From NCBI RefSeq assembly GCF_000455345.1, contig NZ_HG315690.1, positions 2,059,360 through 2,123,359 of the forward strand: a DNA stretch of 64,000 nucleotides. The letters are read 5' to 3'. This DNA comes from Halopiger goleimassiliensis (GTDB lineage: Archaea > Halobacteriota > Halobacteria > Halobacteriales > Natrialbaceae). The notes beneath the pieces were generated by a model that ran no database searches, was not told the DNA's origin, and saw nothing but the letters and a program-made list of their open reading frames with translations. The translations under genes were made by a program, and so were the position numbers. Of the stretch, positions 37,084-44,525 are shown one piece after another (positions within the stretch are counted from its first letter, which is position 1; each line of letters starts with the position of its first letter).

Positions 37084-37160
37084 ACTTCCGCAGAAGTGAT
37101 GCGAGGGCAAGACGCTCCGTCTTGCCGCACTTGTGCAGTGCGAGGGGAGGGAATCGAACC
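37084..37160. repeat. 77-bp direct repeat, copy 2 (overlaps tRNA-Leu 3' end)
   Basis: Perfect copy of 36717-36793; positions 37139-37160 are the 3' end of the intact tRNA-Leu gene and 37084-37138 its trailer. The trailer hairpin is 37106-37126. Confidence 0.9.
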
Positions 37161-37221
37161 CACGAACCCCTACGGGAGCGGATCTTGAGTCCGCCGCCGT
37201 TGACCGCTTGGCTACCCTCGC
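37139..37221 (-). tRNA. tRNA-Leu (anticodon CAA)
   Basis: An 83-nt class II tRNA reading UUG. The acceptor stem pairs GCGAGGG with CCCTCGC, with discriminator A at 37139. The anticodon loop is CTCAAGA (anticodon CAA), flanked by GGCGGA and TCCGCT. A long variable arm (CCCGTAGGGG) and the T loop GGTTCGATTCC are standard. No intron and no encoded CCA. Its 3' end is copied downstream twice. Confidence 0.96.
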
Positions 37222-39073: not shown

Positions 39074-39248
39074 GGGGTCGTGGCCAAGCCAGGGATGGCG
39101 ACTGACTCCAGAGGCACCGCGCCCGGGACGACACTCCAGACTGATATACTGATCGGGCACCTGATCAGTGTCCGTGTGATGACCCTCTGGAGTTCCGAGG
39201 CGCACCGGAGATATCAGTCGATCGGGGGTTCAAATCCCTCCGACCCCA
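39074..39248 (+). tRNA. tRNA-Trp (anticodon CCA) with 101-nt intron
   Basis: Exon 1 is 39074-39111 and exon 2 is 39213-39248; the mature tRNA is 74 nt with acceptor GGGGTCG/CGACCCC and discriminator A. The intron (39112-39212) interrupts the anticodon loop after the base following CCA, giving mature loop CTCCAGA. A bulge-helix-bulge site fits: CTCC pairs with GGAG (39207-39210) as the central helix, with bulges AGA and ATA; cleavage after the second base of each bulge gives exactly the mature loop. This intron position is the one known from Haloferax volcanii. Confidence 0.96.
39112..39212 (+). ncRNA. Box C/D guide RNA inside the tRNA-Trp intron
   Basis: Box C is GTGATGA at 39176-39182. Two antisense elements match the same pre-tRNA. 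GACTGATAT, next to box D CTGA (39149-39152), pairs with the exon 2 start and places U39 at the fifth base from the box. TCTGGAGT, next to a CCGA box (39195-39198), pairs with the anticodon loop and places C34 at the fifth base. So the intron should guide 2'-O-methylation of C34 and U39, as established in H. volcanii. The FlpA and Nop5 proteins needed are encoded at 18276-19791. Confidence 0.88.
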
Positions 39249-39253
39249 TACTT

Positions 39254-39282
39254 CTGTCGCGAGCAAATTCGCGAGCGACAGG
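39254..39282. terminator. Hairpin downstream of tRNA-Trp
   Basis: CTGTCGCGAGCAAATTCGCG then AGCGACAG folds into nested stems (CTGTCGC with GCGACAG; CGCGA with TCGCG) six nucleotides after the tRNA 3' end. It corresponds in position to the 13-bp hairpin behind tRNA-Val. Terminator or processing role is inferred. Confidence 0.4.
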
Positions 39283-39289
39283 TATGTCG

Positions 39290-39359
39290 CGGAGGGATTT
39301 GAACTAGACGAGACGCGCACAGCGAAGCGAGCACGTCTCGGCGTGGTTCAAATCCTCCG
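39290..39359. repeat. Palindromic duplicate of the tRNA-Trp 3' end
   Basis: An inverted T-arm/acceptor copy (39290-39304) faces a direct copy (39346-39359; the tRNA-like match continues to 39365), so the two pair as CGGAGG(G)ATTTGAAC with GTTCAAATCCTCCG. Inside is a second stem (CGAGACG with CGTCTCG) around CGCACAGCGAAGCGAGCA. The same design, with the shared string GATTTGAACTAGAC, follows tRNA-Val at 44448-44517. Confidence 0.85.
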
Positions 39360-39365
39360 ACCTCA

Positions 39366-44313: not shown

Positions 44314-44388
44314 GGGTTGGTGATCTAGTCCGGTTATGATACCTCCTTCACACGGAGGAAGTCGGCAGTTCAAATCTGCCCCAACCCA
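44314..44388 (+). tRNA. tRNA-Val (anticodon CAC)
   Basis: A 75-nt tRNA with acceptor GGGTTGG/CCAACCC and discriminator A. The anticodon arm is CCTCC-TTCACAC-GGAGG, giving anticodon CAC (codon GUG); the T arm is GGCAG-TTCAAAT-CTGCC. No intron, no encoded CCA. It is directly followed by TTTTT (44389-44393), an archaeal-type oligo-T terminator. Confidence 0.96.
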
Positions 44389-44441
44389 TTTTTGCCGACG
44401 CAACGACGAGGAGCACAGCGACGAGTCCGCGTCGGCAAAAA
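44389..44441. terminator. Oligo-T and 13-bp hairpin behind tRNA-Val
   Basis: TTTTTGCCGACGC (44389-44401) pairs perfectly with GCGTCGGCAAAAA (44429-44441) around a 27-nt loop. The T-run at the left end should terminate the tRNA transcript, and the mirrored A-run would do the same for transcription from the right. Confidence 0.7.
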
Positions 44442-44447
44442 TTGTCC

Positions 44448-44525
44448 GGCAGATTTGAACTAGACCGAGGTTCTGCGAGCGAAGCGAGCAGGTTCTCGGG
44501 CGGAGTTCAAATCTGCCCCAACCCA
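44448..44525. repeat. Palindromic duplicate of the tRNA-Val 3' end
   Basis: GGCAGATTTGAACT (44448-44461) pairs perfectly with AGTTCAAATCTGCC (44504-44517). The right arm belongs to a 22-nt exact copy of the tRNA-Val 3' end (44504-44525 equals 44367-44388). An inner stem (CCGAG with CTCGG) and a GAGCGAAGCGAGCAG tip fill the loop. The string GATTTGAACTAGAC is shared with the equivalent structure behind tRNA-Trp. Confidence 0.9.

Follow-up and report, generated by a model that had tools for sequence, protein, structure and literature searches.

The tRNA-Val and tRNA-Trp Loci

The 64,000-nt stretch of the Halopiger goleimassiliensis genome analyzed here (the window) carries a tRNA-Val gene with the anticodon CAC (44314..44388; found with ARAGORN and scoring 60.5 bits against the Rfam tRNA family), the target of the insertions described below. 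All features of this locus lie on the forward strand. The part of the gene that runs from the T-loop to the discriminator base (44369-44388) is referred to as the X block. Directly 3' of the gene lies a hairpin, h1 (44389..44442), with 14-nt perfect arms at 44388-44401 and 44429-44442, or 13 bp when the last tRNA base is left out. Its left arm contains a T-run and its right arm an A-run, and h1 may double as the terminator of tRNA-Val. It is followed by X' (44448..44461), an inverted copy of the T-loop and the 3' T-stem strand of this particular tRNA (GGCAGATTTGAACT), then by a second stem-loop, h2 (44462..44503), which separates X' from X and is common to other isotypes and genera. The h2 sequence starts with AGAC, ends with GGCGG, and has the tip GCGAAGC at 44479-44485. 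The boundary of the unit is X (44504..44525), a 22-nt exact direct copy of tRNA nucleotides 44367-44388. The whole arrangement, 137 bp at 44389-44525, is called the Val cassette here. A preliminary description of this DNA had reported the perfect hairpin after the tRNA, the inverted T-arm with its partner inside the copied tRNA 3' end, and the second stem in the loop with its GCGAAGCGAGCA tip, all of which are present. When folded as single-stranded DNA, the Val unit reaches z = -6.9, with 0 of 200 shuffled sequences folding equally well. A search of the locus against Rfam returned only the tRNA above the gathering threshold, with the remaining matches below it.

An intron-containing tRNA-Trp gene (CCA; 39074..39248, forward strand, found with ARAGORN allowing introns) is the second target in the window. 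It was said to have the same design with its own T-arm and to share the string GATTTGAACTAGAC with the Val locus, and this is borne out. On the same strand, h1 of the Trp cassette (39249..39283) is followed by X' (39290..39304), a 15-nt perfect inverted copy of the Trp T-arm, by h2 (39305..39346; TAGAC-GAGACG...CGTCTC-GGCGTGG, tip GCGAAGC), and by X (39347..39365), a direct copy of the Trp 3' end that is slightly decayed, with one base lost and one changed. The whole Trp cassette spans 117 bp (39249-39365). The first 34 nt of its h1 (TACTTCTGTCGCGAGCAAATTCGCGAGCGACAG) recur as h1 behind tRNA-Val in relatives.

Distribution Across Haloarchaea

The central palindrome can be searched for with the pattern GATTYGAA-N25-55-TTCRAATC, using the reversed pattern as a control. 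The 3.9-Mb genome contains 17 matches and none to the control. One match lies inside a tRNA-Ser gene, and the other 16 lie behind tRNA genes, each with the T-arm of its own tRNA: Ser, Leu, Glu (twice), Arg (twice), initiator Met (twice in tandem), an intron-containing CAT tRNA, Asp, Gly, Trp, Val (twice), Phe, and Pro. In the window, tRNA-Leu(CAA) at 37138-37221 is not matched by the pattern. The earlier view that more than a duplicated att site is involved is upheld, as is the recurrence of the design with each tRNA's own T-arm.

The pattern is present in 29 of 31 genomes of relatives. A sample drawn from the phylum included 25 haloarchaeal genomes, 24 of which contain 1-25 matches; 11 of its 123 non-haloarchaeal genomes contain 1-2, which is near the level of the control (4 control matches in 3 genomes). 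When palindromes were picked without reference to tRNAs, 26 of 28 were found to sit behind a tRNA gene (one locus per genome; L030 judged by eye). When 84,980 named genomes were scanned for the TAGAC subtype, the matches comprised 17 haloarchaeal contigs, including Natronococcus, Natrinema, Halosimplex, and Haladaptatus, and one Woesearchaeote. The latter, a metagenome-assembled genome (L182; JACQSU010000041.1, 938-978), has the cassette layout behind tRNA-Met, with a TAGAC...GGCGTTG motif as in haloarchaea. It is the sole palindrome of that genome and could reflect transfer, shared ancestry, or a mis-binned contig. In the phage and plasmid records, a Natronorubrum bangense plasmid matches the Val cassette at 75% over all 137 nt. 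Neither a haloarchaeal virus with the palindrome nor a free circle of a cassette was found among the viral contigs and the phage and plasmid records. An open-literature search of incomplete coverage found no description of tRNA-linked cassettes.

Cassette Anatomy and Covariation with the Host tRNA

The anatomy of the cassettes was compared in 159 units at 133 tRNA flanks, a set selected in part by the palindrome itself. Unit length has a median of 123 nt and a 5-95% range of 98-154 nt, which leaves no room for a gene, so that a cassette does not carry an integrase gene of its own. The preliminary description had named random distance and orientation of the two copies as an observation that would speak against it. 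Instead, X' lies 34-113 nt behind the tRNA and X lies 25-60 nt behind X', always in the same order; because both distance and orientation are constant, that objection does not apply. In all isotypes the ends of the cassette are fixed at the start of the T-loop and at the discriminator base.

The two hairpins behave differently across tRNA isotypes. Similarity between h1 sequences (score of at least 0.6) is found in 7.7% of same-isotype pairs vs 0.17% of pairs between isotypes, and the corresponding values for h2 are 13.4% and 5.6%. Judged by these similarities, h1 is restricted by isotype and h2 is isotype independent; the Val-type h1 of the Trp cassette in the window is an exception to the former. 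The idea that h1 is a duplicated native tRNA flank was set aside, being true of a minority of loci (17/133) and at odds with the incoming h1 of the insertions described in the next section.

At the level of sequence, X' and X vary in step with the host tRNA. At base 57, X' agrees with that tRNA in 128 of 133 cases, and the T-stem part of X' matches the host tRNA at 2.55 of 4 positions vs 1.51 after shuffling (2000 shuffles, maximum 1.78). The match of X' to the tRNA is often imperfect, and in Ser units the T-loop and acceptor end are retained and the middle is not. The loop tips of h2 also show a bias. GNA triloops closed by C-G, for example d(GCGAAGC), have exceptional stability in single-stranded DNA, and C-GNA-G tips number 69 on the tRNA strand vs 4 on the opposite strand, a bias that by itself does not decide between DNA and RNA because the tRNA strand is also the transcribed strand.

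Insertions and Array Growth

Comparison of orthologous tRNA-Val, Phe, Pro, and Ser genes within the family shows that the DNA downstream is highly variable, with zero, one, or several units or a larger element. In one genome (L246), tRNA-Pro directly abuts a flank that begins TACTGTATAA; in its congener (L245), exactly 129 bp with the structure h1-X'-h2-X lie between tRNA-Pro and the same flank. In a second pair of congeners, L198 has 266 bp, made up of two different units, after tRNA-Phe, and the flank beyond them shares 96.9% identity with that of L197 over 1138 nt. The incoming h1 is unlike the resident flank in both pairs. The insertions are exact-ended at the tRNA 3' end, and a copy of about 20 nt of the target, the tRNA 3' end, is always present with cassettes. 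Insertion is precise, repeated, and tRNA proximal, and the end of the tRNA is restored.

In 25 ordered comparisons the extra DNA starts directly at the tRNA, which indicates that arrays grow from the tRNA side; 37 further offset pairs, in which it begins within older units common to both or beyond a larger insert, were left out. Arrays contain up to five units, and neighbors are dissimilar. For example, five tandem units lie behind tRNA-Ser in L341 and two in its congener L350, with h1/h2 pairs reassorted and a homologous outer flank. At tRNA-Phe, distal copies in L196, L199, L208, L211, L220, L222, and G000:C2:282484 have the odd spelling GTTCACAATCC across genera with differing h1. Such a copy is an old unit retained by descent in which the tRNA-proximal half has been replaced.

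Relationship to Integrases and Full-Size Elements

The tRNA genes that bear cassettes are also used by full-size elements of 1-75 kb. The integrase beside the far end of these elements is of the SNJ2 type, with 36% identity to SNJ2's own enzyme over 97% of its length. SNJ2 attP, beside int, has a 14-bp core of 3' T-stem and acceptor sequence without a palindrome, and attP has been described as free of stem-loops (review PMC8371274). The cassette core differs, as it begins at the T-loop and is palindromic. In some SNJ2-type attR arms, a twin hairpin breaks the tRNA copy exactly at the start of the T-loop, and the second of these hairpins and h2 form one sequence family (score 33, against at most 16 after shuffling). 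In L158, L159, L160, L163, L167, and L297 and at the tRNA-Phe loci L200, L201, and L221, the twin hairpins sit exactly at the T-loop start of dead tRNA fragments in these attR arms, in a short form that lacks a full X.

In L163, L356, and L358 the cassette lies outside the SNJ2-type element, beyond attR, with the element between the tRNA and the older cassette. This layout indicates that large elements, too, insert right beside the tRNA and that cassettes are older than, or separate from, the SNJ2-type elements. The two have a platform in common, and perhaps a recognition hairpin as well. An integrase 148-191 nt away in three genomes had suggested that the palindrome might be the P-arm of SNJ2-type elements; this was no longer taken as proof, as the cassette there is beyond attR.

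SNJ2-type integrases are present in 41 of 44 haloarchaeal genomes, and their per-genome counts did not discriminate. One genome (G015) has 15 palindromes and zero SNJ2-type integrases at E <= 1e-12. The cassettes of the window have no integrase beside them; the genome's six PF00589 genes lie elsewhere. The genome has two SNJ2-type integrase genes (G000:C1:1785741-1786700 and C2:272830-273774), neither of them beside the cassettes of the window.

Prophage contigs from IMG/VR offer a separate observation. Five of them (L070, L083, L096, L099, and L115; GC 0.61-0.65) have a perfect 20-24-bp T-arm palindrome, CATGGATTTGAACC...GGTTCAAATCCATG, at the att site. The palindromes lie 39-117 nt from an integrase gene, confirmed as PF00589 in two cases, and their core is the tRNA-Met att core of Bifidobacterium prophages (PMC6109161), a paper that gives the core and does not mention a palindrome. 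By analogy, these contigs give an independent hint that an inverted plus a direct T-arm could form a tyrosine-recombinase site.

A Model for Gene-Less Cassettes and Its Alternatives

With slightly better than even confidence, we read the Val feature as one of a group of mobile cassettes that contain no genes and have the T-loops of haloarchaeal tRNA genes as their specific insertion site. The shared h2, the covariation of X' and X, and the precise insertions argue for cassettes and against simple duplication of an att site or fold-back at random. Further points in favor are the location of 26 of 28 palindromes behind tRNA genes, the dissimilar neighbors in arrays, the strand bias of the C-GNA-G tips, the kinship of h2 with hairpins in attR arms, and the prophage palindromes. 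The likeliest view is that the cassettes are att-like mini-elements moved by a candidate tyrosine recombinase. Such a cassette would bring along X as a new 3' end for the tRNA, together with h1, which resembles a terminator, the inverted T-arm X', and h2 as the hairpin for recombination. Upon insertion the tRNA would be rebuilt from the X of the cassette and the old 3' end displaced downstream as the direct copy; later cassettes would enter beside the tRNA to form arrays. We infer that strand exchange by the tyrosine recombinase would have the T-loop as its overlap region, a type of overlap already known for integrases that act on tRNA genes (cited in PMC8371274). The X'-h2-X segment would act as a folded, possibly single-stranded, att site, in which pairing of X' with X would make a double-stranded core from one strand, with inner-arm mismatches TAGAC/GGCGT. 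This geometry would be as in CTXphi attP and integron attC. It weighs against the model that no recombinase could be linked to the cassettes, that SNJ2-type integrases occur in nearly all genomes yet G015 has none at the threshold used, that SNJ2 attP lacks a palindrome, that neither a free circle nor a cassette in a virus record turned up, and that the cassettes of an isotype must already carry its X, so that the spread of h2 between isotypes is not accounted for. A more specific and rather doubtful proposal is that haloarchaea (with one Woesearchaeote instance) have an integron-like system in which T-loops would be the attI-like platform, the gene-less cassettes would carry attC-like folded sites, and a host or mobile-element recombinase would act on them.

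The cassettes could also be scars of SNJ2-type-integrase elements at tRNA 3' ends whose interior was deleted, leaving the att arms (X, h1, X', h2, X). Full-size SNJ2-type elements at the same tRNAs, the related twin hairpins in their attR arms, and short forms at tRNA-Phe that lack int and contain a tRNA fragment (nt 27-53) fit such an origin. We consider it unlikely given that the cassette lies beyond attR in three loci, that no full-size element read carries a full X', that unit length is uniform, unlike the outcome of random deletions, and that two units were gained together between the tRNA-Phe congeners without an element. It is quite improbable, too, that the hairpins are an RNA device, that is, tRNA trailer hairpins for termination, processing, or regulation in which X' pairs with X or with the T-arm of the tRNA. 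In its favor, every hairpin is on the sense strand of the tRNA and the loops are biased, a T-run opens h1, and X' covaries with the tRNA. Against this, the minimum-energy RNA fold has X' paired to the T-arm of the tRNA itself, which abolishes the tRNA fold; many orthologous tRNAs lack any unit, dead tRNA fragments contain related hairpins, few of the tips (6) are GNRA tetraloops, and there is no Rfam family.

The preliminary description had suggested fold-back during replication or a palindromic element that copies tRNA ends. The palindromic element comes close to the result of the comparisons; fold-back as its generator is not supported. Fold-back or template switching at tRNA hairpins would yield inverted plus direct copies, both X-h1-X' and X'-h2-X are palindromes, in 17 of 133 loci (score of at least 16) the last X is followed by sequence similar to h1, and quasi-palindrome correction would keep X' like X. 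This origin is nevertheless very unlikely, because h2 comes from neither the tRNA nor the flank and is foreign sequence common to isotypes and genera, tandem units are unlike one another, new units are not copies of the resident flank in the tRNA-Pro and tRNA-Phe pairs, and the ends are exact and the same in every isotype. It is possible, though, that repair maintains the match between X' and X. We give hardly any weight to elements of the IS200/IS605 (HUH) type, like haloarchaeal PATEs, with two subterminal hairpins moved as single strands. Such elements would match the gene-less units in having two hairpins and palindromes, and PATEs are known from Haloquadratum (PMC3119063). PATEs move without target duplication (PMC3119063), unlike cassettes with their constant target copy, the cassettes target tRNA T-loops only, and no connection to TnpA emerged from the loci examined.

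If the preferred reading of mobile, gene-less cassettes is true, mobile cassettes would have furnished the 3' ends of a large share of haloarchaeal tRNA genes, and the T-loops of tRNAs would be a general and very active recombination platform in haloarchaea. The cassettes would offer a natural test case for tyrosine recombinases acting on folded single-strand sites beyond integrons and CTXphi, and their arrays, growing from the tRNA side, a ready marker of recombination history. This reading would also caution that a repeat or short "att" copy close to a haloarchaeal tRNA often does not mark the end of a provirus.

Comparison with Known Systems

Among the closest known systems are the SNJ2-type tRNA-integrated elements (pleolipoviruses and others), which have the same hosts and tRNA 3'-end targets, rebuild the tRNA, leave its end directly repeated at their distal boundary, and in some cases have related hairpins in their attR arms. 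As expected of tRNA-site-specific insertion, the gene is rebuilt and a direct copy of its end lies at the other boundary in L245/L246, in L198/L197, and in the window. Unlike SNJ2-type elements, cassettes are gene-less, have an inverted T-arm, stack in arrays, and begin at the T-loop as opposed to a 14-bp T-stem/acceptor core. The Bifidobacterium-type tRNA-Met prophages resemble them in the inverted T-arm/loop/T-arm palindrome beside an integrase on IMG/VR contigs and differ in being full prophages of bacteria with one palindrome and no arrays.

Other short haloarchaeal elements, the MITEs, SMRs, and PATEs of Haloquadratum (PMC3119063), are likewise short, gene-less, palindromic, and mobile between strains. 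Those elements are found genome-wide and within other elements, whereas the cassettes are found only behind tRNAs and duplicate the tRNA end. They therefore fit neither the MITE definition (terminal inverted repeats, a short target duplication, and many sites) nor that of PATE and IS200/IS605 elements, in which the target is not duplicated (PMC3119063).

The CTXphi attP, a folded single-strand site for XerCD, also has two inverted core copies and a foldable spacer, in a 7-kb phage that integrates at dif as opposed to a unit of about 120 bp at tRNA genes (PMC4792948). Integron cassettes and their attC sites share with the tRNA cassettes small size, palindromic sites, mismatched inner stems, and strand-specific loop features, and integron arrays share insertion at one fixed end, as in the 25 ordered comparisons. 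Unlike integrons, the tRNA cassettes have no ORF, IntI, or attI, and the target is a tRNA gene. The cassettes are tRNA-targeted integration of a known kind that behaves like an integron-style array, and it is possible that they represent a categorically new system.
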